Assembly: GCA_034440615.1 (NCBI GenBank)
Contig: JAOTOM010003851.1
Span: forward strand, 62,001 to 126,000
Length of the DNA stretch: 64,000 nt
Direction of reading: 5' to 3'
From: Ashinkailepas kermadecensis
Taxonomy: Eukaryota > Arthropoda > Thecostraca > Neolepadidae
Shown here: piece after piece, positions 8,734-63,239 of the stretch
Layout: every line of letters starts with the position of its first letter
How positions within the stretch are numbered: the stretch's first letter is position 1
Notes under the pieces: model-generated
What the model saw: only the letters and a program-made list of their open reading frames with translations
What the model was told of the DNA's origin: nothing
The model's database searches: none
Translations under genes and position numbers: made by a program

Positions 8734-8795
8734 CGATTGATTGATTATTGAGGGTTTTAGGGTGCGTCAACCCCAGTGGGTTATATTGCACCCAT
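8734..8795 (-). mobile_element. Tiny hairpin retroposon copy (~60 bp)
   Basis: Read on the minus strand it begins TGGGTGCAATATAACCCA, contains GACGCACCCTAAAACC and ends AATAATCAATCAAT. This matches the family consensus described at 30426-30482 with GGGTGC/GCACCC as the stem. No clean target-site duplication is seen. Confidence 0.65.
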
Positions 8796-9039
8796 AACAA
8801 GCTTGCTTAATCACACATCAGATCGTCACATATGAATATAAAAGATCGGTAGTTATTTGGGCATTAGAGCGCTTATTAGAACATATCTGGGGAAGCAAAT
8901 TATCAGCTAGGAAGGTGTGCATAGTTGACCGGCAGGGGACGGCGCGTTCGGTCCGGCCAGCTGCGGCGGGTGATGGATAACATGCGGAACATTCTAATCG
9001 GGCAGATCGACTGACGATGCCCGGCGAGCGACACCGCCC

Positions 9040-19384: not shown

Positions 19385-19790
19385 AAATGGAGGGTGCGGG
19401 GTCGGACGGTGTATGGAGGGTGCGGGGTCGGACGGTGTATGGAGGGTGCGGGGTCGGACGGTGTATGGAGGGTGCGGGGTCGGACGGTGTATGGAGGGTG
19501 CGGGGTCGGACGGTGTATGGAGGGTGCGGGGTCGGACGGTGTATGGAGGGTGCGGGGTCGGACGGTGTATGGAGGGTGCGGGGTCGGACAGGTGTATGGA
19601 GGGTGCGGGGTCGGTGCGGGTCGGACGGGTGTATGGAGGGTGCGGGGTCGGACGGTGTATGGAGGGTGCGGGGTCGGTGGTGGTGGTGGATTTGTGCTTT
19701 AGGGCGCGTCGACTGCATTGGTCATTTTGCGCCCATATGGAGGGTGCGGGGTCGGACGGTGTATGGAGGGTGCGGGGTCGGACGGGTGTA
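19385..19790. repeat. 26 bp G-rich minisatellite, ~13 copies, interrupted by a retroposon
   Basis: TGGAGGGTGCGGGGTCGGAC repeats about 11 times from 19386 to 19678, stops at a tiny retroposon, and resumes with two units at 19738-19790. Each unit has GGAGGGTGCGGGGTCGG, a two-quartet G-quadruplex motif. Confidence 0.95.
19680..19737 (-). mobile_element. Tiny hairpin retroposon inserted in the 26 bp array
   Basis: On the minus strand it reads TGGGCGCAAAATGACCAA, GTCGACGCGCCCTAAAGC and a degenerate CAAATCCACCACCA tail. Array units on both sides show it landed inside an existing array. Confidence 0.8.
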
Positions 19791-20269: not shown

Positions 20270-20490
20270 ACCACCACTTGACACCCGACCATTACTGTCC
20301 CGGAGGCCCGATGGTGATCCTCTACACGCCCGATCCTCGACTCCCCATCAGCTGTCTTCTGTGCCCGGCCATTACCTGTCTCGCAGGCCTGACGGTGATC
20401 ATCGGCACGCCCGACCCTCGACTCCTGATCAGCTGTCCTCTGTGCCCGGCCATTACCTGTCTCGCAGGCCCGACGGTGATCCTCTGCATG
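20270..20490. repeat. ~84 bp repeat, 2.5 copies
   Basis: GGCCATTACCTGTCTCGCAG with GGTGATCCTC and CCCGACCCTCGACTC recurs. The first copy is more diverged (TTACTGTCCCGGAGG). Confidence 0.88.
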
Positions 20491-21266
20491 AGCGTGTTGA
20501 GCCGAGGGGAGGCCTGCACCTCCTGCGGTGGAGGGTCCCATCGACTCTGCCGTCGGGGGGCGTCCCGGACGACGGCCACACGCCGGCCGGTCGTACCGTG
20601 CGCCGAGTCCAGCCGTCGCTGTTCCTCACCCGGCCGCCGACCGAGCGTGCCGGCGGCGGGCGGCCACGGCTGGGCCGGCCGCCGGTGTCGACGGCCGCTG
20701 GCCAGCCGCGACGGCGTGATCTTGGCGCGGCTGGCGTCGCGGCGGTACGGGCTCGAGTTGTGCCGCTGGCTGCCGGCCAGGCTGCTGTAGCCGCTGTCGG
20801 GCCGCAGGGGCTCGTCACAGGCGGCCGGCCGGCGCCGCTCGGGACGACACTGGCCGGCCGACGCGTCCACACCGTCGTACAGGCTGACCAGGTGCGCCAC
20901 GTGCCGGCCAGGCGCTCGTGCAGCCGCTGGCGGCTGCTGGGCAGCACGCCGCTGCTGCAGCCGCGCCCGCGCCGAGGCGCAGTCCTTGCCACGACTCTTG
21001 CGAGTCATCAGCGTGTTGACAAACTGGTGGTGATAGTCGAGCGCCTTGCCCTGCAGCCGCCTCACCATAGCCTGCAGCCGGCCTCCCGTGGAGGCAGGCG
21101 CCGCCGACCGGCTGGCCGGCGACCGCACATAGCGCGACTCGTTGAACGCTATCTGAAGCACAGCGCCGCGCTCTTCCTCCTCGTCCTCGGAGCTGTCCGA
21201 CGAGCTGGCGCCGCCAGGGGGCCAGTCGCGCCGACCCTGGTACGTGCCCTGCACGGCGTACAGCAT
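20322..21266 (-). CDS. Candidate coding exon, copy 1 of a duplicated unknown gene
   Basis: From ATG at 21266 (context GTGGCC) the minus frame gives 314 residues. Residues 1-235 are shared with the copy at 40768-41649. Features: an acidic serine block SSSDSSEDEEEE (21-32), a charged stretch KALDYHHQFVNTLMTRK (74-90), an Arg/Gln/Ala-rich region, and PDSGYSSL (156-163), which fits the DSGxxS beta-TrCP degron pattern. Third-position GC is high throughout. After residue ~235 the frame enters the unrelated 84 bp repeat, so that part is probably read-through beyond an exon end I could not place. The protein looks disordered, and I recognise no family. The opposite strand is also open but has a poorer composition. 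Confidence 0.55.
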   Translation of the reverse strand: MLYAVQGTYQGRRDWPPGGASSSDSSEDEEEERGAVLQIAFNESRYVRSPASRSAAPASTGGRLQAMVRRLQGKALDYHHQFVNTLMTRKSRGKDCASARARLQQRRAAQQPPAAARAPGRHVAHLVSLYDGVDASAGQCRPERRRPAACDEPLRPDSGYSSLAGSQRHNSSPYRRDASRAKITPSRLASGRRHRRPAQPWPPAAGTLGRRPGEEQRRLDSAHGTTGRRVAVVRDAPRRQSRWDPPPQEVQASPRLNTLMQRITVGPARQVMAGHRGQLIRSRGSGVPMITVRPARQVMAGHRRQLMGSRGSGV

Positions 21267-21367
21267 GGCCACCGTCACCGCACCATGCAGCCGGCACCGA
21301 CACCTCTCACCGACACGCAGACGCGCTCCTGGCCTCCAGAGGGGCCGCGCGTCAACTGAGCTGCCTC
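20563..21367. repeat. Segmental duplication, copy 1 (direct pair with 40920-41754)
   Basis: About 800 bp match the second copy at over 99% in the core. I see three coding differences (S44P, K90R, V133E) and one upstream C/T. A 27-base segment is present only in copy 2. The last ~50 bp at the 20.57 kb edge are clearly more diverged than the core. Confidence 0.93.
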
Positions 21368-21552
21368 AGCCACATCCAGCAGGCGGCCGGCGGCGACCGA
21401 GGCGCCGCCGAGTGGCCGTCGACCGAACCAACCACTGGCTGTGGCGACGCGACAGGAGCCCGGCATGGACCAGAACAAGACGAGAGGCGGTGCGGCGGAG
21501 ACAGAAGAGACACTGAGCTCACAAGTGGACATGGACCAGCGGGCACTACCAT

Positions 21553-23640
21553 CCGACCAGACCCTCCGCTCACCACTCAGCCAAACCCTCCGCTCACCAC
21601 CCGACCAGACCCTCCACTCACCACCCGGCCAGACCCTCCACTCACCACCCGACCAGACCCTCCACTCACCACCCGGCCAGACCCTCCACTCACCACCCGG
21701 CCAGACCCTCCACTCACCACCCGACCAGACCCTCCACTCACCACCCGACCAGACCCTCCACTCACCACCCGACCAGACCCTCCACTCACCACCCGACCAG
21801 ACCCTCCACTCACCACCTGGCCCGACACTCCACTCACCACCCGACCAGACCCTCCACTCACCACCCGGCCAGACCCTCCACTCACCACCTGGCCCGACAC
21901 TCCACTCACCACCCGACCAGACCCTCCACTCACCACAAGGCCAGACCCTCCACTCACCACCTGGCCCGACACTCCACTCACCACCCGGCCAGACCCTCCA
22001 CTCACCACCCGACCAGACCCTCCACTCACCACCCGGCCAGACCCTCCACTCACCACCTGGCCCGACACTCCACTCACCACCCGACCAGACCCTCCACTCA
22101 CCATCCGATCAGACCCTCCACTCACCTCCTGGCCCTCCACTCCACTCACCACCAGACCAGACCCTCCACTCACCACCCGACCAGACCCTGCACTCACCAC
22201 CAGGCCAGACCCTCCACTCACCACCTGGCCCGACACTCCACTCACCACCCGACCAGACCCTCCACTCACCACTTGGCCCGACACTCCACTCACCACCCGA
22301 CCAGACCCTCCACTCACCACCCGGCCAGACCCTCCACTCACCACTCAGCCAGACTCTCCGCTCACCACCCGACCAGACCCTCCACTCACCACCCGACCAG
22401 ACCCTCCACTCACCTCCTGGCCAGACCCTCCACTCACCACCCGGCCCGACACTCCACTCACCACCCGACCAGACCCTCCACTCACCACCCGGCCAGACCC
22501 TCCACTCACCACCTGGCCCGACACTCCACTCACCACCCGACCAGACCCTCCACTCACCACCCGACCAGACCCTCCACTCACCACCCGACCAGACCCTCCA
22601 CTCACCACCTGGCCCGACACTCCACTCACCACCCGGCCAGACCCTCCACTCACCACCTGGCCAGACCCTCCACTAACCACCCGGCCAGACCCTCCACTCA
22701 CCACCTGGCCCGACACTCCACTCACCACCCGACCAGACCCTCCACTCACCATCCGATCAGACCCTCCACTCACCTCCTGGCCCTCCACTCCACTCACCAC
22801 CAGACCAGACCCTCCACTCACCACCCGACCAGACCCTGCACTCACCACCAGGCCAGACCCTCCACTCACCACCTGGCCCGACACTCCACTCGCCACCCGG
22901 CCAGACCCTCCACTCACCACCTGGCCCGACACTCCACTCACCACCCGACCAGACCCTCCACTCACCTCCTGGCCCTCCACTCCACTCACCACCCGACCAG
23001 ACCCTCCACTCACCACCCGACCAGACCCTCCACTCACCACAAGGCCAGACCCTCCACTCACCACCTTGCCCGACACTCCAATCACCACCCGGCCAGACCC
23101 TCCACTCACCACCTGGCCCGACACTCCACTCACCACCCGACCAGACCCTGCACTCACCACCAGGCCAGACCCTCAACTCACCACAAGGCCAGACCCTCCA
23201 CTCACCACCTGGCCCGACACTCCACTCACCACCCGGCCAGACCCTCCACTCACCACCTGGCGCTCCACTCCACTCACCACCCGACCAGACCCTCCACTCA
23301 CCACCCGACCAGACCCTCCACTCACTACAAGGCCAGACCCTCCACTCCACTCACCACCCGGCCAGAACCTCCACTCACCACTCAGCCAGACTCTCCGCTC
23401 ACCACCTGGCCCTCCACTCCACTCACCACCCGACCAGACCCTCCACTCACCACAAGGCCAGACCCTCCACTCACCACCTGGCCCGACACTCCACTCACCA
23501 CCAGACCAGACCCTGCACTCACCACCTGGCCAGACCCTCCACTCACCACCCGGCCAGACCCTCCACTCACCACCTGGCCCGACACTCCACTCACCACCCG
23601 ACCAGACCCTCCACTCACCACCCGGCCAGACCCACCATTC
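21553..23640. repeat. Minisatellite, 24 bp unit, ~87 copies, with higher-order duplication
   Basis: Units are CCACTCACCACCCGACCAGA+CCCT and variants (CCCGGCCAGACCCT, CCTGGCCCGACACT, CTCCTGGCC, CACAAGGCC). A distinctive block beginning CCATCCGATCAGACCCT occurs at 22101 and again at 22749, exactly 648 bp (27 units) apart. One plus frame reads as a 400-residue TLHSPPDQ octapeptide repeat, another as THHPTRPS. Since 24 is a multiple of 3 and the unit has no stop, this is not evidence of coding. Confidence 0.97.
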
Positions 23641-23745
23641 ACCCAAACAGGCCGGAAACAAATCGGTTTGGCAGCGCATCTGATATCACCCGTAACGCGC
23701 CCCAGCCTGGCGGGACAGCACTGACCCAGCCCGACGTCTCAGAAG

Positions 23746-25476: not shown

Positions 25477-25578
25477 AGTGCCACTCCCTCGATGATGGCA
25501 TATAAAAAGTCAATCCAATGATTGCTTTTATTATCAGGTGGTCCAGGTTTCATTATCAGCAAAGTTCCACACCAAGTG

Positions 25579-25736
25579 GTGGTTATTGGTTTTACGACAC
25601 GTCCACAGTGGAGTCATGTCGCGTCGCCAATCTCTCACACCGATTGATCGCGGGCAAAGAGTAGCGACAGGTTAGACTCGAACCCATAATCTTTCGATTA
25701 TGAGACGGGCAACTTATCCCTAGACTACTCTCCCCC
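25579..25736 (-). mobile_element. tRNA-derived SINE, subfamily alpha
   Basis: On the minus strand: a tRNA-like head with A box TGGTCTAGGGATAAG and B box GGTTCGAGTCTAAC, a core GCGATCAATCGGTGTGAGAG with ATTGGCGACGC, and a tail GTCGTAAAACCAATAACC. It is flanked by TTCCACACCAAGTG (25565-25578) and TTCCACACCAGGTG (25737-25750), a 14 bp target-site duplication with one mismatch. Confidence 0.93.
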
Positions 25737-26588: not shown

Positions 26589-27191
26589 CGCTTGAGGGCG
26601 GAACGGACTTTGTTAACAGGACCATGCGCCAATGTGGCTGGTCAGTTCATGTAGTTTCGGCTCCGCATCACAAACTATGTGTTTCGATGCGGACGGTACG
26701 TCCGCATCAAAACACCCCGAGATCAGGCTGCATAGAGCAGGCCCATGGCGAAAACATGGATGACTGAGGACGTATATGCCAAAATCGGTGCATGATGAAC
26801 GTTGGGACGGAGGCCCAAGCTATCAAACTCACCTTCTCCGGCCCTCTCCCTTTCCAGGGAGAAGCCCGGAGAAAGTGGGTATTGACAAGGTCAGATGGTC
26901 CTCCCTCCGGGCATCTCCCTTTCCAGCCCTATCGACGGATCTCCAGCCGCCTTCCTCGCCCTACACTCCCATCGACGGATCTCCAGCACAATTTCACCAC
27001 TCACAGGAACACCGGGCGAAAAGTGACCCTCACAGCAAGACGCCTGTCGTAATTCAGCATCCAGAACGTACACTCTGGCCATAACGAGGAACTGGACGGC
27101 CATTGCCGCGGCAGTCCAGTTAATCAGCTCGCCTAAACGGTGGGAACACATGTTCTCCTGGCGCCGCCCGGTGTGGCTTCACTTTCTCTGA
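26589..27191. other. Single-copy sequence
   Basis: A ~40 bp string around CCTATCGACGGATCTCCAGC is duplicated near 26925 and 26970. A minus-strand frame (27151-26891) with an internal GTGAGT site is open but lacks third-position bias, so no exon is called. Confidence 0.35.
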
Positions 27192-27237
27192 TGATGATTG
27201 GTGTTTAGGGGCGCGTCGACTGCAAGGATTTGGCCCA
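27192..27237 (-). mobile_element. Tiny hairpin retroposon with perfect 17 bp target-site duplication
   Basis: A 46 bp insert (minus strand: TGGGCCAAATCC ... GTCGACGCGCCCCTAAACAC) sits between two identical copies of GGCTTCACTTTCTCTGA at 27175-27191 and 27238-27254. The long duplication indicates target-primed reverse transcription. Confidence 0.9.
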
Positions 27238-27490
27238 GGCTTCACTTTCTCTGACAACAGCCAGCCCCGCCACGTGCCCAACTGAGTAGTTCAGCGCGTG
27301 GGGTGCTCGTTATCTTCGGTTAGTCGGCATTTCAGCGGCAACGCCTGTTCTCGAACGCATTGCAATAGCAAGATTGATGACCCGACATGAGATCTAGGCC
27401 GCTTCTAATGTCATACAGCGTGGAGCGTACATTCTGGGTCATGAGCGGGTTGGCACACAACACCAACTCAGGGGCATAATAGTACTGCCT

Positions 27491-27648
27491 ACGATCGCGG
27501 TAGATCAGCCGGTGGGGAGCTGCACTCTTGATGGTGGGTTCGAATCTCGCAAACGGCGGATTACCGAGCCCACCCGCGACCCCAATCGGCGTGAGAGGTT
27601 GGCGACGCTATGTGGCCTAGCAGTCAGATGCGTCGCAAGAGAACCCAA
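27491..27648 (+). mobile_element. tRNA-derived SINE, subfamily beta
   Basis: Head with CGGTAGATCAGC, CACTCTTGATG and B box GGTTCGAATCTC; core CCAATCGGCGTGAGAGGTTG+GCGACGCTA; tail GCGTCGCAAGAGAACCCAA. Flanked by AGTACTGCCT at 27481-27490 and 27649-27658. The anticodon arm is partly deleted compared with the 47.2 kb copy. Confidence 0.92.
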
Positions 27649-27658
27649 AGTACTGCCT

Positions 27659-29322
27659 TGAATACACTAACACCTTTAGGACATTTTGTCAAGGAACACA
27701 ATGGCACGCGTCTGCGAAGTTGCCAATAGCTCGGCGAGGAATTCATGTAACAAAAGGGGTTCTCGGTGCTGGGGAACGGTGGGCTCAACTGCCCGAAACC
27801 AATCTCCAAGACAATCATGATGAAGGCTAGCTGTCAAGTAATTACTCTCTAATTCCTATCACTAATTACTACTCAGAACCGTATTCTAATTATTATTAGG
27901 GCCTTTGAGCTCATCGACCTGAATAAGATCATCCAGCACTGATGATAGAGCAAAGGACTACCTGCTCAGCCTTCTACCATACCCACGGGAAGGATCGGCC
28001 TCCTTTCAATATAGCCGGTCTCCGTGCGACATAAATGTCCGGTACTGGCCTTAGCCGTACTGCTATCAGCCTAATGAAGCCTGGTGCAGCGACTGGCCAC
28101 ACCCAGCTTTAGAAACTGCACGTCACCGTGGAACGTTTAGCCTACACACAAACCCAGACCACCAACATCGCCATCCCACCGCATACACCACGTGCCGCGT
28201 CGGCTTCGGCAACCCGCAGCGGGCTCCACTGGCCCGGTCCGGCTGACATTCAGCACCGCCTCCCTCGCACACGCGATCACCAAGCAACGGAATACGGAGG
28301 ATCTCGACATGCGGCCCATGGCGGTCTTCCTGCTCGTATATCGAACTTTCAATGGATGCCGAATATCACATCGCTGAAGGCCATCCGTCTGCTCGATGGC
28401 GATTACATCAGGAGTCGGACCGGCGACCCAACCGGTACGGTGACGTCGATATCCGCCGTCCGTGGCGGCGGCAGTGTGTGATCGCAGTCTGATCAGCGCG
28501 AGGCGATCGGGATCCGGCCGTCTCGCGCTGTGAGACCGCAGTTGGCGCGCCGGCGTGACCTTGGAGCGGTGCGGCCGGCAGCGCGGTGTGTCGTGCGCAC
28601 ACAACTGCACCTTCCGCGCGCACACACATGCGGACGGTGTGGAGCCGGGCACGGACCGTGCCGCTGTGGGACGTCACGTCCGGGACCCGGACGCCACGTC
28701 CGGCGACCGACCGACAGCGGCAACCAGCCACCGGCCACACCCAGCCCGTCCAACGTCCACCGACGTCCGGTCCGTGCTCCGTCGGCCGACCGGCACTGGC
28801 CGCTGCCGCAGCCACAGCCGCTGCTGCCGCCAGTGCCGGCAGTGCCGACCAGCCACTGACAAGTGGACACTGCAAAACTGCACGCCGGCTCAGCAACCAG
28901 CACAGCCAGGAGACAGAAACAGCGTCCAGTTCAGACAGGGAGCGCGGCTCGGAGGCTCGCCGATCCAAATGACGTGATCAGCCTGACAACATTGGCCAAA
29001 CATAGCCCAACATTGGCCAAACGGCGCCAATGTTCCGGCGCGCCGACATGGCGACTGCAAACACAACGCTCGTGCCCTGGGGGGGGGGGACTCAGCCGCA
29101 GACAATTGTGGTCGTGCTACTGCCACGGAGGTTACGGCCTCTGGTCTGGTGGTGGTCAGTCGGTACCACCGAGAGCACGATCGGCGGCGCATTCCTCAGG
29201 TATGCCGCAGACCTGGAGACACAGTAAGCCCACCTCCGTCCGGGTGCCCGTGCGACGCAATCTGACAACAAAAAATCCGTCCACGATATCTCCTGTACAG
29301 CTGTCTAAAGCGTCATAGGTAC
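27659..29322. other. Long single-copy stretch
   Basis: The first kilobase is of moderate GC, the rest GC-rich. Several frames of 100-190 codons overlap on both strands from 28.1 to 29.0 kb with no splice-bounded candidate. No tandem repeat is seen. Confidence 0.45.
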
Positions 29323-29336
29323 GGCTGATTATTGGT

Positions 29337-29499
29337 CGGTTGGTTGGTTATTGGTTTTACGACACGTCGACCGTTGAGTCATATAGCGTCGCCAATCTCT
29401 CGCGCCGATTGGTCGCGGGCGAAGATTAGCGACGGGTGAGACTCGAACCCACAATCTTTCGATTGTGAGTCGAGATCTTACCCTAGACCACTCGTCCCT
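29337..29499 (-). mobile_element. tRNA-derived SINE, subfamily alpha, perfect 14 bp target-site duplication
   Basis: Minus strand: GACGAGTGGTCTAGGGTAAG, B box GGTTCGAGTCTCACC, core CGACCAATCGGCGCGAGAGA, and a tail GTCGTAAAACCAATAACC ending in (AACC) repeats. GGCTGATTATTGGT occurs at 29323-29336 and 29500-29513. Confidence 0.95.
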
Positions 29500-29513
29500 G
29501 GCTGATTATTGGT

Positions 29514-29925: not shown

Positions 29926-30094
29926 TACCGCTTGCTGCTCAAGCGCCAGAGCAGCAGCCAAGCAGTGGTCTGCTCGGCCGCCAGCCGGGGACGAGCTGCA
30001 AACACAGCAGCGGCCGCCAACACGGCGGTGGCCGCCAACACGGCGACCGTCGGCGGCTCAGTGGGACCACGGGAGGGCCGACTGCGCTCCTGTA

Positions 30095-30300
30095 ATGGCA
30101 TAACCGTGGCACATCTCGACTGGAGATGATACCCCGCGTGAGATCCAGCTGAGCCGGAGTCGACTGTGTGACAGTTCCCATCACTCGTGGCTGAGATAGT
30201 CATCACGGTCCGGCCGCATAAACAAATCGCTTGGGAGGGCCTGCCTTTTGTCGTGCGGCACATCTCCAACTGCAGACTGCGGGGCTCCAACATCGTCTAC
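30095..30300 (+). pseudogene. Broken exon, left-arm partner of 39686-39889
   Basis: It starts with ATG as in the right copy. The third codon, GAA on the right, is TAA here, and GTGGCAG has become GTGTGACAG (+2 bases), shifting the frame. Downstream the protein ITVRPHKQIAWEGLPFVVRH remains readable, and the GTGAGG donor after GTCTAC (30300/30301) is kept. It is therefore a disabled copy, unless translation uses an acceptor after the indel (GTGTGACAG/TTCCC), which would bypass both lesions. Confidence 0.65.
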
Positions 30301-30425
30301 GTGAGGCTGACGGGAGGGTGGGGTCCGCAATCTCCGACTGCTGGCGGACAGTTGGAGAGTGAGGTGTCCGCCATCTCCGACCCGGGGCGGACAGTCCACC
30401 CGTGTAGCCGCTGCCAACGAGATGA

Positions 30426-30482
30426 TTGGTTGGTTGGTTATTTGAGTTTTAGGGCGCATCGACCAGGTTTGGTCATTTATGG
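30426..30482 (-). mobile_element. Tiny hairpin retroposon (57 bp), reference copy with empty site
   Basis: Minus strand: CCATAAATGACCAAACC, GGTCGATGCGCCCTAAAAC, TCAAATAACCAACCAA. GCCAACGAGATGA flanks it at 30413-30425 and 30483-30495. The right arm of the inverted duplication (about 39566-39582) has a single GCCAACGAGATG and no insert, which proves insertion after the duplication or loss on the right. The tail resembles the 3' end of SINE subfamily alpha. Confidence 0.93.
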
Positions 30483-30750
30483 GCCAACGAGATGAGACGT
30501 TTGCTTCAGTGTGCTGGAGTGGCAGCGGTGGGCATGTAATGGTTATGGGTTGGGTGTCCTGTCAGCCCTGAGGCGGTCTGCCGTCCGAGTGGCTCGCCGC
30601 CCGCCGTCCTTCACTGTGATTGGTGGACGCGGAAGGTGTTCACGTCGGTACACCGCCGTAACCTGCCCCTGTAATCACTGAGGTGTCCGCAGCTGCGATA
30701 CAGCTTCATCTCGCGCCAATGTAGCGGGTGCGTTCGCAGTCCGCGGCTGA

Positions 30751-31317
30751 ATGGTGAAAGTGGTCGGTGTTCAATTAACGACTCTGCGCGCCCTCGATGG
30801 TGACCGGTTACGGCCGTGTGCGTGTCACACGCACTGCAGCCGGTGGAGCCCTGCGGTGCGCAGTGTGCGCTCCACAGCACCGATGGATGACGTGTATTGC
30901 CGGCCCGGGTTTATCGGGCCCAGCGTGTCGTGTGTCTCGTGGGAGCTGAATCTGTGCAGAGGCGAGCCCGCACCGGCCGCGTTCTGGCAGCGGCCAGCAG
31001 TCGGCAGTCTGGTCCAGCCTGTCTGCGGATCTGTGTGGTCCCCGGTCGCTGATTTAATTAGCGGTCTGGTCCGGCGTCTGTGGATCTGTCCGGTGACCCC
31101 TGACCCACAGCTACGACGCAGGGAGTGCTGGTGTGTTGTGTGCAAACTGCGGAATGCCGCAGCCAAGGTGCGGGACGAAGCGGTGGCGGCGGCCGGGAGT
31201 GGTTTAATCGCCCTCCGACGCGGGAACTGCGTGTCAGTCTGCTGCGTTGCAAGGCTACAGCAGTTTGCATGTGTTGTGGCAGCGGTCGATGGTCAGCTGC
31301 CTTTCGACGTTGAGTAG
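30751..31317 (+). other. Open frame of 188 codons in the left arm, unlikely gene
   Basis: ATG at 30751 opens a frame ending TAG at 31315. It contains VYCRPGFIGPSVSCVSWELN and CWCVVCKLRNAAAKVRDEA. In the right arm the same frame is cut by a TAG (CTGGTAG for CTGGCAG), and the opposite strand is equally open. I see no clear exon boundaries, so I regard coding as unproven. Confidence 0.2.
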
Positions 31318-33946: not shown

Positions 33947-34107
33947 CTGGTGACGAGTGGTCTAGGGGTAAGTTGCCAGTCTCACAATCGAAAGATTGTG
34001 GGTTCGAGTCTCGCCTGCCGCTACTCTTCGCCCGCGACCAATCGGCGTAAGAGATTGGCGACGCTACATGACTGAACGGTCGACGTGTCGTGAAACCAAT
34101 AACCGCC
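33947..34107 (+). mobile_element. tRNA-derived SINE, subfamily alpha, present only in the left arm
   Basis: GACGAGTGGTCTAGGGGTAA, B box GGTTCGAGTCTCGCC, core CGACCAATCGGCGTAAGAGA+TTGGCGACGCTA, tail GTCGTGAAACCAATAACC. The right arm runs from GACCCTGGAATCCC straight to CGTGAGGAAGTTCAG without it. A clean target-site duplication was not found, perhaps because of small rearrangements (CCCTGAC repeats) at the 3' side. Confidence 0.9.
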
Positions 34108-34320
34108 ACCTACCCTGACTCCGACCCTGACCCTGCGGAAGTTCAGCTTCCATTGAACATGTAAGTTGTGACCGATCTGTTTATGGCCCGGAATCCCCCT
34201 CCCCTCCTGCCTCTCCTTCCTCATGCCTCCATGAACGAATCGTTCGTCCTGTCAGAGATGCGTCGTATTCGTGATTGGCATTCTCCGATAGTTGACGGGA
34301 AAACTTCAATTTCAGCACTG

Positions 34321-35405: not shown

Positions 35406-35714
35406 GTGGCGACAGCCTCCAGCCGGGAGGTCATCTCAACATCTGACCGGACCTCCGGAGGTCACTCCATCGCCACCACCATAAGCGGCGCTCAGATGCG
35501 CTACCCAGCCAATAATTGCCCGCTCGTTAAGGTTTATCGGCAAGGATCGTTAACTCGAATGGATCGATAAATTATGGCAGAAGCGAGCGAGAGTGGCAGC
35601 TCAAAGGCCACAGAAACTAGACCACATGGGACGGACAGCCACCGTGTTAAAGGCGCCGTTCGTAAATATGGGTACACCCGATTATGTCTGAATAATAGGG
35701 CGCATCGTTCAACT

Positions 35715-36020
35715 TGACTCCCAATAGAGCAGTGGTAGCGCCCTGGACAAGTTTGTGCCAACGCTGAGTTGTCAATAGAGCAGTGGTGGTGCCCTGGCCA
35801 CGTTAGTGCCAACGCTGAGTTGTCAATAGAGCAGTGGTAGTGCCCTGGCCACGTTAGTGCCAACGCTGAGTTGTCAATAGAACAGTGGTAGCGTCCTGGA
35901 CACGTTTGTGCCAATGCTGAGTTGTCAATAGAGCAGTGGTAGCGCCCTGGCCACGTTAGTACCGACGCTGAGTTGTCAATAGAGCAGTGGTAGCGCCCTG
36001 GCCACGTTAGTGCCACCGTC
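35715..36020. repeat. Minisatellite, 51 bp unit, 6 copies
   Basis: CAATAGAGCAGTGGTAGCGC with CTGGCCACGTTAGTGCC and AACGCTGAGTTGT recurs at 51 bp, with moderate divergence (GGACA/GGCCA, GTTTG/GTTAG). Confidence 0.95.
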
Positions 36021-38394: not shown

Positions 38395-40045
38395 CTCAGT
38401 TTCTTTCCGCTTCAACTATCGGAGAATACCAATCACGAATCCGACGCGTGTCTAACAGGACGAACGATTCGTTCATGGAAGCGTGAGGAAGGAGAGGCAG
38501 GAGGGGAGGGGGCCTCCGGACCATGAACAGACTGGTCACAACTGACCTGTTCAATGCCAGCTGAACTTCCTCACGGTCAGACAGGGCCGGGATTCCAGGG
38601 TCCTATCAGGGTCCAAATTACGAGACGACCAACGTGGGAGGCATGCCCGAACACGCACGTGGCCACGAGATGATCGCGACTCCTGTCCATCCCAGCGAGA
38701 TGAGCACGAGATGACGTCACCAGGCCGCCACCGCTCCTCATCGCCCAGCCGGCCGAACCGCAGCTGACCATCGACCGCTGCCGCAACACATGCAAACTGC
38801 TGTAACCTTGCAACGCAGCAGACTGACACGCAGTTCCCGCGTCGGAGGGCGATTAAACCACTGCCGGCCGCCGCCGCCGCTTCGTCCCGCACCTTGGCTG
38901 CGGCATTCCGCAGTTTGCACACAACACACCAGCACTCCCTGCGTCGTGGCTGTGGGTCAGGGATCACCGGACAGATCCACAGACGCCTGACCAGACCGCT
39001 AATTAAATCAGCGACCGGGGACCACACAGATCCGCAGACAGGCTGGACCAGACTGCCGACCGCTGACCGCTACCAGAACGCGGCCGGTGCGGGCTCGTCT
39101 CCGCACAGATTCAGCTCCCACGAGACACACGACACGCTGGGCCCGATAAACCCGGGCCGGCAATACACGTCATCCATCGGTGCTGTGGAGCGCACACTGC
39201 GCACCGCAGGGCTCCACCGGCTGCAGTGCGTGTGACACGCACACGGCCGTAACCGGTCACCATCGAGGGCGCGCAGAGTCGTTAATTGAACACCGACCAC
39301 TTTCACCATTCAGCCGCAGACTGCGAACGCACCCGCTACATTGGCGCGAGATGAAGCTGTATCGCAGCTACGGACGCCTCAGTGATTACAGGGGCAGGTA
39401 CGGCGGTGTACCGACGTGAACACCTTCCGCGTCCACCAATCACAGTGAAGGACGGCGGGCGGCGAGCCAATCGGACGGCAGACCGCCTCAGGGCTGACAG
39501 GACACCCAACCCATAACCATTACATGCCCACCGCTGCCACTCCAGCACGCTGAAGCGTGCTGAAGCGGCCCATCTCGTTGGCAGCGGCCATATAGCTGGA
39601 CCGTCCGTCCCTAGTCGGAGATGGCGGACCACTCACTCTCCAACCGTCCGCCTGCAGTTGGAGATGGCGGATCCGTCCACCTCACGTAGACGATGTTGGA
39701 GCCCCACAGCCTGCAGTTGGAGATGTGCCGCACGACAAAAGGCAGGCCCTCCCAAGCGATTTGTTTATGCGGCCGGACCGCGATCACTATCTCAGTCACG
39801 AGTGATGGGAACTGCCACAGTCGACTCCGGCTCAGCTGGATCTCACGCGGGGTATCATCTCCAGTCAAGATGTGCCACGGTTCTGCCATTACAGGAGCGC
39901 AGTCTGCCCTCCCGTCGTCCCACTGAGCCGCCGACGGTCGCCGTGTTGGCGGCCACCGCCGTGTTGGCGGCCGCTGTCGTGTTTGCAGCTCGTCCCCGGC
40001 TGGCGGCCGAGCAGACCACTGCTTGGCTGCTGCTCTGGCACAGCG
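38395..40045 (-). repeat. Inverted segmental duplication, right arm (compact)
   Basis: Reverse complement of the single-copy parts of 29926-34312, about 95% identical. It holds one 41-bp-type unit (about 38668-38710) and one adjacent B-like half-unit (about 38712-38752) where the left arm has two arrays over 1 kb each. It lacks both retroposons. Confidence 0.93.
39686..39889 (-). CDS. Candidate intact coding exon in the right arm, unknown product
   Basis: ATG at 39889 opens 68 codons to a donor GTGAGG (39685-39680). Residues include MAEPWHILTGDDTPREIQLS, RSRLWQFPSLVTEIVIAVRP and HKQIAWEGLPFVVRHISNCR, ending LWGSNIVY. An alternative start is an acceptor CTGTAATGGCAG just before 39882, making this an internal exon. 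Third-position GC is about 74% and the peptide has the hydrophobic pattern of a folded protein, unlike most open frames here. The left-arm copy is disrupted, so this is the functional copy if there is one. No family is recognised. Confidence 0.5.
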
Positions 40046-40627: not shown

Positions 40628-40825
40628 TACACACACTTCACCGCCCCAGAGGGGCCGTTCACCGGGTGTACATGTACACACCACCTAACCGCCCCCGAGG
40701 GGCCGCTGCCATGGCGTACCGACACACATCACCTCACCGCCCCCCCACGGCAGTTGACCGAGCGTACCTACATACACCATCTCACCGCCCCCGAGGGGCC
40801 GATGACTGGGCGTACCTGCACCCGG
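40628..40825. repeat. Degenerate ~54 bp repeat, 4 copies
   Basis: CTCACCGCCCCCGAGGGGCC recurs at about 54 bp; the intervening parts (GTACNTNCANACACCA) are diverged. The CCCCCGAGGGG core is palindromic. Confidence 0.85.
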
Positions 40826-41649
40826 AGCCGGTCCGGAGTCCTCCGCATGAGCGAGAGAAGGCGGAGGGACGGCGTGATATCGGCCACCGGCTCCCACAGG
40901 AGGCCGGCCGGCAGCGGGGCCCTGACGAGGGCCACACGCCGGCCGGTCGTGCTGTGCGTCCAGTCCAGCCGCCGCTGCTCCTCACCCGGCCGCCGACCGA
41001 GCGTGCCGCCGACCGCCACGGTGGTGCCGACGCCGGCGGCGGGCGGCCACGGCTGGGCCGGCCGCCGGTGTCGACGGCCGCTGGCCAGCCGCGACGGCGT
41101 GATCTTGGCGCGGCTGGCGTCGCGGCGGTACGGGCTCGAGTTGTGCCGCTGGCTGCCGGCCAGGCTGCTGTAGCCGCTGTCGGGCCGCAGGGGCTCGTCA
41201 CAGGCGGCCGGCCGGCGCCGCTCGGGACGACACTGGCCGGCCGACGCGTCCTCACCGTCGTACAGGCTGACCAGGTGCGCCACGTGCCGGCCAGGCGCTC
41301 GTGCAGCCGCTGGCGGCTGCTGGGCAGCACGCCGCTGCTGCAGCCGCGCCCGCGCCGAGGCGCAGTCCTTGCCACGACTCCTGCGAGTCATCAGCGTGTT
41401 GACAAACTGGTGGTGATAGTCGAGCGCCTTGCCCTGCAGCCGCCTCACCATAGCCTGCAGCCGGCCTCCCGTGGAGGCAGGCGCCGCCGACCGGCTGGCC
41501 GGCGACCGCACATAGCGCGGCTCGTTGAACGCTATCTGAAGCACAGCGCCGCGCTCTTCCTCCTCGTCCTCGGAGCTGTCCGACGAGCTGGCGCCGCCAG
41601 GGGGCCAGTCGCGCCGACCCTGGTACGTGCCCTGCACGGCGTACAGCAT
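40768..41649 (-). CDS. Candidate coding exon, copy 2 of the duplicated unknown gene
   Basis: ATG at 41649 in the same context as copy 1; 293 residues to a stop at 40768. The shared block carries the acidic SSSDSSEDEEEE, the DSGYSS degron-like motif and the Arg-rich C-terminal part. It has a 9-residue insertion (GVGTTVAVG) after WPPAA that keeps the frame. Unlike copy 1, the frame continues open upstream of the ATG to about 41907, so an earlier start or exon is possible. Past the shared block, sequence and protein are unrelated to copy 1. Confidence 0.55.
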   Translation of the reverse strand: MLYAVQGTYQGRRDWPPGGASSSDSSEDEEEERGAVLQIAFNEPRYVRSPASRSAAPASTGGRLQAMVRRLQGKALDYHHQFVNTLMTRRSRGKDCASARARLQQRRAAQQPPAAARAPGRHVAHLVSLYDGEDASAGQCRPERRRPAACDEPLRPDSGYSSLAGSQRHNSSPYRRDASRAKITPSRLASGRRHRRPAQPWPPAAGVGTTVAVGGTLGRRPGEEQRRLDWTHSTTGRRVALVRAPLPAGLLWEPVADITPSLRLLSLMRRTPDRLRVQVRPVIGPSGAVRWCM

Positions 41650-41754
41650 GGCCACCGTCACCGCACCATGCAGCCGGCACCGACACCTCTCACCGACATG
41701 CAGACGCGCTCCTGGCCTCCAGAGGGGCAGCGCGTCAACTGAGCTGCCTCGCCT
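40920..41754. repeat. Segmental duplication, copy 2 (direct pair with 20563-21367)
   Basis: Same orientation as copy 1, about 20.4 kb away. Homology ends at GAGCTGCCTC on the right (21367/41754) and near GGCCACACGCCGGCC on the left. It contains 27 bases (CCGACCGCCACGGTGGTGCC and flanking) absent from copy 1. Confidence 0.93.
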
Positions 41755-41979
41755 CCCACAAGCAGCGCCGGCCGTCGGCGACGGTGGCGCCGTGCGGCGG
41801 CGAGTCCACACACTCGCCGTACGCTGCGCGGACGGCGACGGAGCGTAGTAGGCGCACCCACTTTCACTCACCGCCTCTGAATGGGCTGCAACTGGAAGGA
41901 CCGGCACTTACGCGCCAGCAGCCTAACCGGCGTCGGCCGCCACCCGACCCGGAGCAGCCGTCAGTGGTCACGAGAACTC
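41755..41979. other. Single-copy sequence
   Basis: No supported feature. Confidence 0.35.
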
Positions 41980-43887: not shown

Positions 43888-43939
43888 CCACAGCAGGAGC
43901 GGTACACACCGTCGACGGTGTGTACCGCTCCTACTGTGG
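43888..43939. repeat. 52 bp near-perfect palindrome at the array start
   Basis: Centred on GTCGAC at 43911-43916, the arms match for 26 bp with one mismatched pair. The left arm is an inverted copy of the first half of the 45 bp unit that follows. Confidence 0.93.
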
Positions 43940-46395
43940 ACGGACCGTCAGGTGTGCCGATGGTGTGTGCCGCTCCTACTGTGGACGGACCGTCAGGTGT
44001 GCCGATGGTGTGTGCCGCTCCTACTGTGGACGGACCGTCAGGTGTGCCGATGGTGTGTGCCGCTCCTACTGTGGACGGACCGTCAGGTGTGCCGATGGTG
44101 TGTTGCCGCTCCTACTGTGGACGGACCGTCAGGTGTGCCGACGGTGTGTGCCGCTCCTACTGTGGACGGACCGTCAGGTGTGCCGATGGTGTGTGCCGCT
44201 CCTACTGTGGACGGACCGTCAGGTGTGCCGCTCCTACTGTGGACGGACCGTCAGGTGTGCCGACGGTGTGTGCCGCTCCTACTGTGGACGGACCGTCAGG
44301 TGTGCCGCTCCTACTGTGGACGGACCGTCAGGTGTGCCGATGGTGTGTGCCGCTCCTACTGTGGACGGACCGTCAGGTGTGCCGATGGTGTGTGCCGCTC
44401 CTACTGTGGACGGACCGTCAGGTGTGCCGATGGTGTGTCGCTCCTACTGTGGACGGACCGTCAGGTGTGCCGACGGTGTGTGCCGCTCCTACTGTGGACG
44501 GACCGTCAGGTGTGCCGACGGTGTGTGCCGCTCCTACTGTGGACGGACCGTCAGGTGTGCCGATGGTGTGTGCCGCTCCTACTGTGGACGGACCGTCAGG
44601 TGTGCCGCTCCTACTGTGGACGGACCGTCAGGTGTGCCGATGTGTGTGCCTGCTCCTACTGTGGACGGACCGTCAGGTGTGCCGCTCCTATTGGACGGAC
44701 CGTCAGGTGTCGTGGTGTGCCGTCCTACTGTGGACGGACCGTCAGGTGTGCCGCTCCTACTGTGGACGGACCGTCAGGTGTGCCGATGGTGTGTGCCGCT
44801 CCTACTGTGGACGGACCGTCAGGTGTGCCGATGGTGTGTGCCGCTCCTACTGTGGACGGACCGTCATGTGGTGTGCCGATGGTGTGTGCCGCTCCTACTG
44901 TGGACGGACCGTCAGGTGTGCCGATGGTGTGTGCCGCTCCTACTGTGGACGGACCGTCAGGTGTGCCGATGGTGTGTGCCGCTCCTACTGTGAACCGTGG
45001 TGCCGCTCCTACTGTGGACGGACCGTCAGGTGTGCCGATGGTGTGCCGCTCCTACTGTGGACGGACCGTCAGGTGTGCCGATGGTGTGTGCCGCTCCTAC
45101 TGTGGACGGACCGTCAGGTGTGCCGCTCCTATTGTTGGACGGACCGTCAGGTGTGCCGTATTGGACGCGTGGTGTGCCGCTCCTACTGTGGACGGACCGT
45201 CAGGTGTGCCGATGGTGTGTGCCGCTCCTACTGTGGACGGACCGTCAGGTGTGCCGATGGTGTGTGCCGCTCCTACTGTGGACGGACCGTCAGGTGTGCC
45301 GATGGTGTGTGCCGCTCCTACTGTGGACGGACCGTCAGGTGTGCCGATGGTGTGTGCCGCTCCTACTGTGGACGGACCGTCAGGTGTGCCGACGGTGTGT
45401 GCCGCTCCTACTGTGGACGGACCGTCAGGTGTGCCGACGGTGTGTGCCGCTCCTACTGTGGACGGACCGTCAGGTGTGCCGATGGTGTGTGCCGCTCCTA
45501 CTGTGGACGGACCGTCAGGTGTGCCGATGGTGTGTGCCGCTCCTACTGTGGACGGACCGTCAGGTGTGCCGACGGTGTGTGCCGCTCCTACTGTGGACGG
45601 ACCGTCATGGTGTGTGCCGCTCTTCTGTGGCGGACCGTCAGTTCGGTGTGTGCCGCTCCTACTGTGGACGGACCGTCAGGTGTGCCGACGGTGTGTCGCC
45701 GCTCCTACTGTGGACGGACCGTCAGGTGTGCCGACGGTGTGTGCCGCTCCTACTGTGGACGGACCGTCAGGTGTGCCGACGGTGTGTGCCGCTCCTACTG
45801 TGGACGGACCGTCAGGTGTGCCGATGGTGTGTGCCGCTCCTACTGTGGACGGACCGTCAGGTGTGCCGATGGTGTGTGCCGCTCCTACTGTGGACGGACC
45901 GTCAGGTGTGCCGATGGTGTGTGCCGCTCCTACTGTGGACGGACCGTCAGGTGTGCCGCCGACTGTGGACGGACCGTCAGGTGTGCCGATCTGCCGCTCC
46001 TACTGTGGACGGACCGTCAGGTGTGCCGACGGTGTGTGCCGCTCCTTGCTCCTACTGTGGACGGACCGTCAGGTGTGCCGATGGTGTGTGCCGCTCCTAC
46101 TGTGGACGGACCGTCAGGTGTGCCGGGTGTGTGTCCTGTGGACGGACCGTCAGGTGTGCCGATGGTGTGTGCCGCTCCTACTGTGGACGGACCGTCAGGT
46201 GTGCCGATGTGTGTGCCGCTCCTACTGTGGACGGACCGTCAGGTGTGCCGACGGTGTGTGCCGCTCCTACTGTGGACGGACCGTCAGGTGTGCCGACGGT
46301 GTGTGCCGCTCCTACTGTGGACGGACCGTCAGGTGTGCCGATGGTGTGTACCGCTCCTACTGTGGACGGACCGTCAGGTGTGCCGATGGTGTCCA
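43915..46395. repeat. Minisatellite, 45 bp unit, ~55 copies
   Basis: CCGCTCCTACTGTGGACGGA + CCGTCAGGTGTGCCGATGGTGTGTG, with GATGG/GACGG alternatives, shortened units lacking GATGGTGTG, and several 1-2 base indels that shift frame. The unit has no stop, giving frames of 830-956 codons which I do not treat as genes. Confidence 0.97.
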
Positions 46396-46484
46396 GCCAC
46401 ACGACGGCTGTGTAACATTACTCCGCCGACACCACTACTGACGGCACCATCAATCTCACTCTGACCGGGCTCTGCCTTCTCCAA

Positions 46485-47211: not shown

Positions 47212-47398
47212 GGGGGCCGCGGTAGCTCAGTTGGTAGAGCGTCGGACTCTTGATCGCAAGATTGTGGGTTCGAATCTCACAGCGGACGGCATTTACCGAG
47301 TCCACCTGCGACCAATCGGCGTGAGAGGTTGGCGACGCTACAGCGGTTGAATGACCCAGCGGCTGAATGCGTCGTAAAAGAACCCAAGGTCCTCCTCC
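47212..47398 (+). mobile_element. tRNA-Lys-like SINE, subfamily beta, perfect 14 bp target-site duplication
   Basis: The tRNA-like head has TAGCTCAGTTGGTAGAGC (A box), an anticodon loop CTCTTGA (anticodon CTT) and T arm GTGGGTTCGAATCTCAC (B box). The anticodon stem and acceptor are imperfect, so it is not a functional tRNA gene. Core CGACCAATCGGCGTGAGAGG+TTGGCGACGCTA; tail TGCGTCGTAAAAGAACCCAA. AAGCCGGTGTGTGA flanks it at 47198-47211 and 47399-47412. Confidence 0.95.
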
Positions 47399-51335: not shown

Positions 51336-52084
51336 AACCAGTTCACAGCTCCATCGCCTGTCACCACGGTCCCGTGCTATCGAGACGTATGGGCGCATCA
51401 GGTTCGGTAACGAGCCGATCCCATGCTCGATCAAGCGGGCTACTGCTCTGCTGAAACCAGCCCCGACCAGCCGAGGGAAACGGCACTGAGCGCATCGAGC
51501 CACAATGTGCACCAGAAACAAGTTGGCACACACAATCACGAACAATAGCCGCATAGTGTAAACACAAGTACCGACTTGTTAGTTATTTGAGCTTAACGGA
51601 ACGCCTACTTGAGGGCATGCTTACCAGGAATGCTATTAGGAGATGACCTATACGAACATTATATAATGATCAGAGCACGTAATGTTCACAGCATCGAATC
51701 GGCGTCCAGCACCTGATGACGCCGATAACTGGTGCCGAGTACCGAGCTGGCATAATTGAACGGCCGGGGAACTGAGTGACGGGCTCGGCGTCAAATGGGT
51801 CGCTATCACCGCCAGCAGGCACCTGACATGTGCTCACTGACCACTGAGCGGTGATTTGTTCAGCGTCAATGGGCGGACAGCGGACCTCACGTCATCACAC
51901 GCCGGCGTCGAACGCCAGACGACTCTCAGAGGAGTGTGGCGAGCGCGGCCCGACTCCACGCGCATGTGACGCGTGACGCGTGACGGGTGACTGGACGAGC
52001 GGCGAGTCACTGCTGTCTGGCTGACGGGTGTGACCCGGCGCTACGCCGTGACGGCGAGCGAGCTGTCGACACCGCTGTCTGACA
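51336..52084. other. Single-copy sequence
   Basis: A decayed tiny-retroposon-like string (TTAGTTATTTGAGCTTAACG) occurs near 51578-51620 but is too diverged to call. TGACGCG is tripled near 51966. No gene is supported. Confidence 0.4.
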
Positions 52085-54439: not shown

Positions 54440-56335
54440 GTCACTGGCGTGACGTCAGGCAGGTCAGTGACAACAGCCGCCATCCCTCCGCCATAGCACG
54501 CGCGGACATCGATGGCGTGACGTCAGGCAGGTCAGTGACAACAGCCGCCATCCTCCGCCATAGCAGCGCGGACATCGATGGCGTGACGTCAGGCAGGTCA
54601 GTGACAACAGCCGCCATCCTCCGCCATAGACACGCGGACATCGATGGCGTGACGTCAGGCAGGTCAGTGACAACAGCCGCCATCCCTCCGCCATAGCACG
54701 CGCGGACATCGATGGCGTGACGTCAGGCAGGTCAGTGACAACAGCCGCCATCCCTCCGCCATAGCACGCGCGGACATCGATGGCGTGACGTAGGCAGGTC
54801 AGTGACAACAGCCGCCATCCCTCCGCCATACCACGCGCGGACATCGATGGCGTGACGTCAGGCAGGTCAGTGACAACAGCCGCCATCCCTCCGCCATAGC
54901 ACGCGCGGACATCGATGGCGTGCGTCGGCGGTCATGACACGCCGCCATCCTCGCATAGCCCGCGCGGACATCGATGGCGTGCGTCAGGCGGTCAGTGACA
55001 ACAGCCGCCATCCCTCCGCCATAGCACGCGCGGACATCGATGGCGTGACGTAGGCAGGTCAGTGACAAAGCCGCCATCCTCCGCTAGCACGCGCGGACAT
55101 CGATGGCGTGCGGTCAGGCAGGTCGTGACAACAGCCGCCATCCTCCGCCATAGCACGCGCGGACATCGATGGCGTGCGGTCAGGCAGGTCAGTGACAACA
55201 GCCGCCATCCCTCCGCCATAGCACGCGCGGACATCGATGGCGTGACGTCAGGCAGGTCAGTGACAACAGCCGCCATCCCTCCGCCATAGCACGCGCGGAC
55301 ATCGATGGCGTGACGTCAGGCAGGTCAGTGACAACAGCCGCCATCCCTCCGCCATAGCACGCGCGGACATCGATGGCGTGACGTCAGGCAGGTCAGTGAC
55401 AACAGCCGCCATCCCTCCGCCATAGCACGCGCGGACATCGATGGCGTGACGTCAGGCAGGTCAGTGACAACAGCCGCCATCCCTCCGCCATAGCACGCGC
55501 GGACATCGATGGCGTGACGTCAGGCAGGTCAGTGACAACAGCCGCCATCCCTCCGCCATAGCACGCGCGGACATCGATGGCGTGACGTCAGGCAGGTCAG
55601 TGACAACAGCCGCCATCCCTCCGCCATAGCACGCGCGGACATCGATGGCGTGCGGTCAGGCAGGTCAGTGACAACAGCCGCCATCCCTCCGCCATAGCAC
55701 GCGCGGACATCGATGGCGTGCGGTCAGGCAGGTCAGTGACAACAGCCGCCATCCCTCCGCCATAGCACGCGCGGACATCGATGGCGTGCGGTCAGGCAGG
55801 TCAGTGACAACAGCCGCCATCCCTCCGCCATAGCACACGCGGACATCGATGGCGTGACGTCAGGCAGGTCAGTGACAACAGCCGCCATCCCTCCGCCATA
55901 GCACGCGCGCGGACATCGATGGCGTGCGGTCAGGCAGGTCAGTGACAACAGCCGCCATCCCTCCGCCATAGCACACGCGGACATCGATGGCGTGACGTCA
56001 GGCAGGTCAGTGACAACAGCCGCCATCCCTCCGCCATAGCACGCGCGCGGACATTGATGGCGTGACGTCAGGCAGGTCAGTGACAACAGCCGCCATCCCT
56101 CCGCCATAGCACGCGCGCGGACATCGATGGCGTGCGGTCAGGCAGGTCAGTGACAACAGCCGCCATCCCTCCGCCATAGCACACGCGGACATCGATGGCG
56201 TGACGTCAGGCAGGTCAGTGACAACAGCCGCCATCCCTCCGCCATAGCACGCGCGGACATCGATGGCGTGCGGTCAGGCAGGTCAGTGACAACAGCCGCC
56301 ATCACTCCGCCATAGCACGCGCGCGGACATCGATG
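54440..56335. repeat. Minisatellite, ~68 bp unit, ~28 copies, with CRE and YY1-like motifs
   Basis: GGACATCGATGGCGTGACGT + CAGGCAGGTCAGTGACAACA + GCCGCCATCCCTCCGCCATAG + CACGCGC. I count about 16 units with an intact TGACGTCA; the rest have GCGGTCA, GACGTAGG or degenerate forms. Every normal unit also has two CCGCCAT strings (ATGGCGG on the other strand). Units between 54.9 and 55.15 kb are the most degraded. Confidence 0.97.
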
Positions 56336-56866
56336 GCGCCACCGGCCGATCGCACGGATCTCCTCAGCACTGGACTCAATGGTGTTTCGAGTGCGCCATC
56401 CGCATACTTCCAACACACCGGCACACCGCACCTCTGGCATCCAGTGCACGGAGGGGGGGGGGGACGACATCTTGAACCACGCGTCGTGTCAACAGCAAAT
56501 AACAAAATTGGCGAGGCATGACTTTTAGGTCTATCCTTTCCATACAACGACGCCCACATAGGCCTAATGCAAGACATCAAAACCACCCTGGCACGCCCGA
56601 GTGCCACGTGTTGCACGGCGGTGTGGCGCATGTACCGTCCGTGAGGCGCGCGGGCTCGATCACCCGGTCACGAATTGGTCCATCAGCTGCCGACAGCATA
56701 CCAGCACACCCCATTGTCCAAGGCCACACAAAAAGACGGCCGGTAGCACAACACAAACCGAAACCGCCACCGAAAAACGTCATCAGCCGGCGCGGCCAAT
56801 CACCGCCTCAATTCAGGCGCGGAGAAGCTAAGCTGACGAGGAGGCCACTCGGAGCCTGAGCCGGTA
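56336..56866. other. Single-copy sequence
   Basis: Contains a G10 run at about 56453. No supported gene. Confidence 0.4.
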
Positions 56867-57520: not shown

Positions 57521-57532
57521 GCATTCAAAGGA

Positions 57533-57591
57533 TTGGTTGGTTGTTATTTGGGCTTTAGGGCGCTCCGACCAGAATTGATCATTCGCGCCCA
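57533..57591 (-). mobile_element. Tiny hairpin retroposon (59 bp) with 12 bp target-site duplication
   Basis: Minus strand: TGGGCGCGAATGATCAATTC, GGTCGGAGCGCCCTAAAGCC, CAAATAACAACCAACCAA. Flanks GCATTCAAAGGA (57521-57532) and GCATCCAAAGGA (57592-57603) differ at one base. Confidence 0.92.
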
Positions 57592-57603
57592 GCATCCAAA
57601 GGA

Positions 57604-60062: not shown

Positions 60063-60320
60063 CGTGGTCACACCGCCAAAACGGGCCGTGCCGCCGATGA
60101 CCGACAGCTGATATTGAGAGCGGACCACGCCTGGCTGATCCGTGAGGCGGCGGCGGCGGCGGCGCACGAGGCGCACCGAGTCAGCAGTGTCGTGACGTCA
60201 TTAGCGGTGGCCGGAGCCAATTAATTGTGCCGAGACGGCCGCGGCGAGCGAGGGGCGCTTGGTTTCTTCTGTAACAGCAGACAACAGACAGGCCGGCAGC
60301 GGCCGATGTGGGGAAATATC
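60063..60320. other. Single-copy spacer
   Basis: Includes a short GGC run at about 60149-60163. No gene is supported. Confidence 0.4.
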
Positions 60321-63112: not shown

Positions 63113-63239
63113 CCCGACCCGACACTACATTGGTCCGCGTCCGAACACGAGCAAAACAACACGCTCCGAGCATTAGTAGAAGTTTCAAATGTCTTTAAAA
63201 AAGCAGCTCAGTGTATGCTTTTGCATGCTAATGGTCATG
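63113..63239. other. Single-copy spacer
   Basis: No feature seen. Confidence 0.35.

Follow-up and report, generated by a model that had tools for sequence, protein, structure and literature searches.

An unusually short retroposon-type insertion with relatives in a 64-kb window, and the case for a candidate hairpin-and-tail family

A 57-bp segment that occupies one arm of an inverted duplication and is missing from the other is a real retroposon-type insertion, unusually short and accompanied by relatives in the same window (the whole stretch of DNA analysed here, 64 kb with a G+C content of 62%). That these units form a separate family is a promising but unproven claim. The reading that we put forward, tentatively and at somewhat short of an even chance, is a self-standing family of 46–60-bp retroposons that would consist of a LINE recognition hairpin and tail only, with a fixed 5′ end and no promoter. 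Such a 46–60-bp hairpin-and-tail family, if real, would be the smallest retroposon family known to us.

The 57-bp insert, designated copy A, was delimited by its target-site duplication and by alignment of the two arms.

29945-31306 (about), no strand: left arm of the inverted duplication (filled), from the arm alignment
38754-40039 (about), no strand: right arm of the inverted duplication (empty), from the arm alignment
30426-30482, minus strand: copy A, the 57-bp insert, placed by its duplication and the arm alignment, its start ambiguous by about 4 nt
30483-30495, minus strand: 5′ copy of the target-site duplication of copy A, TCATCTCGTTGGC on the minus strand
30413-30425, minus strand: 3′ copy of the target-site duplication of copy A
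39571-39582, plus strand: empty site in the other arm, a single target without insert

The alignment of the arms spans 1298 base pairs; outside 30320-30510 their identity is 97.0% (1138/1173). In the left arm, GCCAACGAGATGA stands at 30413-30425 and is repeated at 30483-30495 with exactly 57 bp (30426-30482) in between, a perfect 13-bp duplication that bears out the sequence-only reading, according to which the same sequence flanks a 57-bp insert. The companion claim, that the right arm has the target once and lacks the insert, also holds: the target is present there once as CATCTCGTTGGC (39571-39582), the reverse complement of GCCAACGAGATGA minus one base. A small indel lies immediately beside this site in the right arm, leaving the empty site with one clean edge and one that is slightly disturbed; the arm alignment splits the insert into two adjacent gaps of 27 and 34, the remaining gaps measuring 1–9 bases. 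The simplest history for copy A is insertion into one arm, later than the duplication.

A direct duplication is also present in the window (20564-21407 and 40920-41792; 94% identical in an 874-column alignment). It carries long minus-strand reading frames (20322-21365 and 40768-41907) and is possibly a duplicated exon. The frame at 40768-41907 has one relative, P0001, 42% identical, among 8000 scored candidates; it had no match in Pfam or PDB, and P0001 had none in Pfam.

Five clear copies of the unit (A, B, C, D and F), 46–60 bp long and all on the minus strand, occur in the window.

57533-57591, minus strand: copy B, 59 bp, starts TGGGCGC; duplication TCCTTTGRATGC, 12 bp with 1 mismatch, at 57592-57603 and 57521-57532
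19678-19735, minus strand: copy C, 58 bp, starts TGGGCGC, tail (CCA)n; duplication CCGACCCCGCACCCTCCATA, 20/20, at 19736-19755 and 19658-19677
8735-8794, minus strand: copy D, about 60 bp, starts TGGGTGC and has the GCACCC to match; without target duplication
27192-27237, minus strand: copy F, 46 bp, starts TGGGCC, no hairpin; perfect 17-bp duplication TCAGAGAAAGTGAAGCC at 27238-27254 and 27175-27191

The uniform orientation, which had been pointed out for all copies, has a two-sided chance of 0.06 for these five. Pairwise likeness is 67–95% over the first 46 nt, gaps ignored. GCGCCCTAAA is exact in copies A, B and C, its place being taken by GCACCCTAAA in D and GCGCCCCTAAA in F; AATAACCAACCAA is exact in copy A alone among the five and is also found in a SINE at 29340-29352. 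Copy B is flanked by TCCTTTGGATGC and TCCTTTGAATGC. At the 3′ end, the simple repeat adjoining the duplication varies between copies, being (AACC)n, (CCA)n, (AATC)n or (ATC)n. An earlier count of six copies sharing both ends goes too far: there are five clear copies, their tails differ and TGGGCGC is exact in B and C only (TGGGTGC in D, TGGGCC in F), but the 5′ end is indeed fixed at TGGG in B, C and F.

Target-site duplications accompany four of the five copies and measure 12 bp with 1 mismatch (B), 13 bp (A), 17 bp (F) and 20 bp (C); one was sought at the boundaries of copy D and none was found. As a control we used 1744 random window sites outside the tandem-repeat mask, of which 0.8% had a boundary duplication score of at least 10; this score is reached by A (13), B (10) and F (17) and not by D. 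The boundaries of B, C, D and F were set by the TGGG start, whereas that of copy A was read off its duplication, which makes copy A a non-independent test. Copy C (score 20) lies in a masked tandem array, so the random-site control is of no help there; scores of at least 20 were found at 18% of all 4000 random sites, masked ones included. Tandem Repeats Finder masks 44% of the window, in which a 24-bp tandem array lies near 21430-23650 and long tandem arrays near 43900-46400, 54445-56340 and 60320-63120.

The array that copy C interrupts is a minisatellite with a 26-bp unit. Among the 13 unit matches listed, 11 are intact (CATACACC), one is broken by copy C and the last one diverges. The intact units serve as empty sites, making copy C a second filled/empty case.

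In copies B, C and F the upstream duplication stops directly before TGGG, which fixes the 5′ end in these three. In copy A the upstream duplication extends to TGGC, and the unit begins with CCATAAATG directly after it; because this part of the target adjoins CCATAAATG, the true start of copy A lies about four bases later or is masked by the match to the target. Three exact 5′ coincidences among five copies are unlikely under random truncation, but the copies are few.

Folded at their exact bounds, copies B, C and D are predicted to adopt the same two-tier hairpin (z -3.23, -2.45 and -2.97, respectively). In its outer stem, B and C have GGGCGC/GCGCCC, D has GGGUGC/GCACCC and the SINEs of the window have CGACGC/GUGUCG; the inner stem is UGACC/GGUCG or near, and UAACC/GGUUG in copy D. 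At its exact bounds copy A forms the inner hairpin only (-6.4 kcal/mol, z -2.51), since the outer stem has its 5′ half either missing or within the target; with target-duplication bases included, the two-tier fold appears (z -3.87). Copy F folds into neither tier (z +0.67). The GGGCGC/GCGCCC stem that had been ascribed to the unit is accordingly complete in B and C; in D its two sides have changed together, and in A and F it is incomplete, copy A lacking the 5′ half unless target bases are counted.

Supplied with copies A, B, C and D and three SINE tails but no structure, RNAalifold returned one two-tier hairpin, with changes on both sides at 4/11 pairs (as many as five bases of the target are part of row A in the alignments and models). 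Sliding the pairing partners by 1–3 columns lowered pairing from 87% to 29–46%. Shuffles among the seven rows reached the observed score and percentage paired in 51/500 cases, the number of both-side-change pairs in 135/500 and the number of such cells in 26/500. A slide of -2 gave both-side changes at 4 pairs and 7 cells, above the 3 pairs and 5 cells of the structure itself, in a MAFFT alignment for pair counts that holds copy C one base out of register and so lowers the counts. With seven-row covariation close to that of the shuffles and the -2 slide scoring higher, covariation alone is not strong.

The window also contains tRNA-derived SINEs with a related 3′ end.

29337-29499, minus strand: SINE S29 (SINE alpha), tRNA-derived, with a related 3′ hairpin and an (AACC)n tail; 14-bp duplication ACCAATAATCAGCC at 29500-29513 and 29323-29336
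33952-34110, plus strand: SINE S33, second copy of the S29 SINE; duplication not found
25574-25736, minus strand: SINE S25, third copy of the S29 SINE; 14-bp duplication with 1 mismatch
47215-47390, plus strand: SINE with a tRNA-Lys-like head (ARAGORN), a central domain as in the S29 SINE and a related 3′ hairpin

The only tRNAs reported by ARAGORN and Rfam are those at 29427-29499 and 47215-47288, which ARAGORN types as Val-like and Lys-like, respectively. S29, S33 and S25 end in the related hairpin, TAAAACC or TGAAACC and then an (AACC)n or CCA-rich tail; alone, the SINE tails fold modestly (z -1.10, -0.57 and -2.75), S25 in another shape. A covariance model built from B, D and A, a type of model whose E-values are rough, recovered the held-out copy C at 8.4e-10, the three SINE tails at 1.4e-5, 9e-4 and 2.9e-3, and copy F at 0.28. 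Conversely, a model from the three SINE tails recovered D at 3.7e-5, C at 3.5e-4, the tRNA-Lys-type SINE at 4.8e-4 and A at 0.06, with copies B and F absent up to E 10. A relationship between the tails of the short copies and those of the SINEs is thereby supported, though not for every copy. The resemblance of the 3′ tail to that of SINE alpha had been remarked on before, and by the covariance models it appears to embrace hairpin and tail, with a differing outer stem.

SINEs with differing heads have in common a central domain around CCAATCGGCGYGAGAGRTTGGCGACGC, together with a related 3′ hairpin (47215-47390 (+), 27573-27650 (+), 29337-29499 (-), 33952-34110 (+) and 25574-25736 (-)); in this they look like a conserved-domain SINE superfamily. 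The reading frame of the tRNA-Lys-type SINE had no relative at E 0.01. In bacterial genomes, 13 stretches matched the SINE central domain, 9/13 of them titled Rhizobium, Neorhizobium or Pseudorhizobium, and viral contigs gave no match to it. Two pattern scans of viral contigs for the unit returned one match in the first (L001), with flanks unlike the unit, and none in the second. In the 14 loci L001-L014, hairpin model R1 had no hit at E <=1 under default filters. We took the viral and bacterial matches to the unit or to the SINE domain as chance, the L001 match included.

Four weak matches in the window, each maybe a decayed copy, were excluded from the copy count.

8849-8875, minus strand: weak match G, E 0.09, without duplication
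63255-63310, minus strand: weak match J, E 0.1, without duplication
51579-51607, minus strand: weak match H, E 0.29, without duplication
27889-27940, minus strand: weak match K, E 6e-4, without duplication

The E-value of K is on a par with that of one SINE tail, and K is absent from the matches listed for model R1 up to E 10; it may be a real old copy. The five clear copies and four weak matches are 9/9 on the minus strand, and SINEs occur on both strands. A further candidate at 35681-35744 (E 6.7) was rejected as chance.

An internal Pol III promoter of the kind that characterizes SINEs (tRNA, 5S or 7SL) was not found: none of the five copies has a recognisable B box, the best fit leaving 3–4 mismatches out of 11 in A, B, C, D and F versus 0 in the two SINEs scanned. 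For the A box, copies and SINEs score too much alike to be told apart, with 2–3 mismatches in the copies and 2 in the SINEs. No LINE was found either, with no Pfam match at cut-off in the 18 reading frames scanned of 178 listed for the window.

Duplications of 12–20 bp together with simple-repeat tails point to target-primed reverse transcription, and the marks of a target-primed retroposon are all present: duplications of variable length, a simple-repeat tail and a filled/empty site (copies A and C). The proposal of a very short mobile unit, originally made from filled/empty evidence, is upheld by the duplications, the tails and the filled/empty pair of copy A. We consider it an evenly balanced matter whether the units are tail-only non-autonomous retroposons that enter by target-primed reverse transcription, using the LINE on which the neighbouring SINEs depend. 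In this mechanism the RNA would amount to hardly more than a 3′ hairpin (about 34 nt, counted from its own outer stem) joined to a simple-repeat tail by a short linker (TAAA..C.CAAAT), and the template would presumably be a discrete short RNA starting at TGGG. A putative stringent-type LINE, also serving the neighbouring tRNA-derived SINEs, would bind this RNA by its hairpin and nick the target; copying would then be primed on the tail and run as far as the 5′ end of the RNA, with duplications of 12–20 bp as the result. With no recognisable B box, this RNA would need an outside promoter or would have to be cut from a longer transcript.

For the L2 LINEs of zebrafish, the portion of the literature drawn on here reports that deleting or swapping the stem-loop abolishes retrotransposition, and that the loop is read specifically while the stem may be exchanged but not broken (PMC4176376). 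A kept inner part combined with a different outer stem would fit recognition of the loop as described there for ZfL2. Counting against the tail-only reading are copies A and F, which have perfect duplications outside tandem repeats and do not have the whole hairpin. Either part of the hairpin was lost during copying in these two or the outer stem is unneeded; under the proposed mechanism, copy A would have ended a few bases early and copy F would have lost part of its hairpin during copying.

Among other origins, a longer LINE or SINE parent with a GGGCGC-type tail, on which reverse transcription often ends just upstream of the hairpin, is possible but on the doubtful side. A fixed stop on such a parent could also give the common 5′ end, the 3′ part of the unit is related to SINE tails, and copy A is perhaps truncated by about 4 nt. 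Short 5′-truncated LINE copies are common, which we counted for this explanation. By eye, the matching point in the SINEs follows a pairable segment, CCAATC/GATTGG; RNAfold places a helix in this region in 1/5 SINE bodies only, and in another register. No longer copy with a GGGCGC stem was seen by eye among the 34 matches to GCGCCCTAAA in the window (<=2 mismatches; 15 plus, 19 minus). A tally of five short copies against no long one in the window is weak evidence against a recurrent stop. Moreover, a hairpin would be expected to stall the enzyme before being opened, not after being copied.

We judge it unlikely that the units are retrocopies of a small host RNA gene ending in a LINE-like hairpin, with one or a few masters under external promoters, an origin that overlaps the tail-only retroposon explanation. 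It would suit the common 5′ end and the lack of a recognisable B box, and a snoRNA-derived retroposon without an internal Pol III promoter is described for platypus in the part of PMC3747384 consulted. Rfam, however, gave no match at gathering score in the window except the two tRNAs, relaxed scans, confined to the surroundings of copies A and B, yielded chance-level matches (E 2 to 7.3), and the 67–95% likeness of the copies would call for several source genes or long activity.

For copy A only, the insert could be ancestral and the right arm could have lost it by recombination between the 13-bp repeats, a scenario that can coexist with the other explanations but strikes us as improbable. The same single target copy would remain after such a recombination, and the right arm does carry another small indel adjoining the site; against this stand duplications at unrelated sites in three more copies and the independent filled/empty case of copy C. 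Even if the loss were true, the original insertion would remain a retroposition. Hardly credible is a very short DNA transposon (MITE-like) or other cut-and-paste unit: the copies are short, hairpin-forming and flanked by duplications, but these duplications range between 12 and 20 bp where a MITE would have a fixed length, a simple repeat that differs between copies forms the 3′ end, the inverted pair, which in a MITE would be terminal, lies internally on its 3′ side and is missing from A and F, and the SINEs with a related 3′ end are retroposons.

The tail-only retroposon that we propose shares with the stringent type of LINE-tailed SINEs (ZfL2, eel UnaL2), as far as these are described in the portion of PMC4176376 cited, a 3′ stem-loop, a short repeat tail, target duplications and a variable stem with the inner part kept. 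It differs from them in having no tRNA, 5S or 7SL head, no recognised B box and a length of 46–60 bp. SINEs are usually 100 bp or more. A copy of a LINE truncated at its 5′ end would likewise show the 3′ end only and target duplications; here the 5′ end falls at the same nucleotide in 3/5 copies, and no longer relative with the same stem was seen in the window. Platypus snoRTE (PlatSINE1), a snoRNA-headed short retroposon according to the parts of the reports used (PMC3747384, PMC7245038, PMC4233971), is comparable in being a retroposon without an internal Pol III promoter, and its own tail is that of a LINE (RTE) (PMC3747384). The platypus element, as described there, has its snoRNA head, whereas here there is nothing upstream of the tail hairpin. 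Platy-1 of New World monkeys, again from part of the source, is a very short SINE family of about 100 bp (PMC10378772), but is nearly twice as long as the present unit, has an A-rich tail and is moved by L1. None of the matches listed from the open-licence literature described a tail-only retroposon of about 60 bp, which is weak evidence of absence.

The minimum RNA needed for copying and insertion by a LINE is usually probed with engineered constructs. If the hairpin-and-tail reading is true, an RNA of about 60 nt would be a complete template for LINE-driven insertion, with evidence coming from nature, and a natural family of this kind would help to set that minimum, the SINE head and body being dispensable for copying. 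Such a family would also pose the problem of how an RNA lacking a promoter comes to have a sharp 5′ end. Units so short may easily be missed by repeat annotation.
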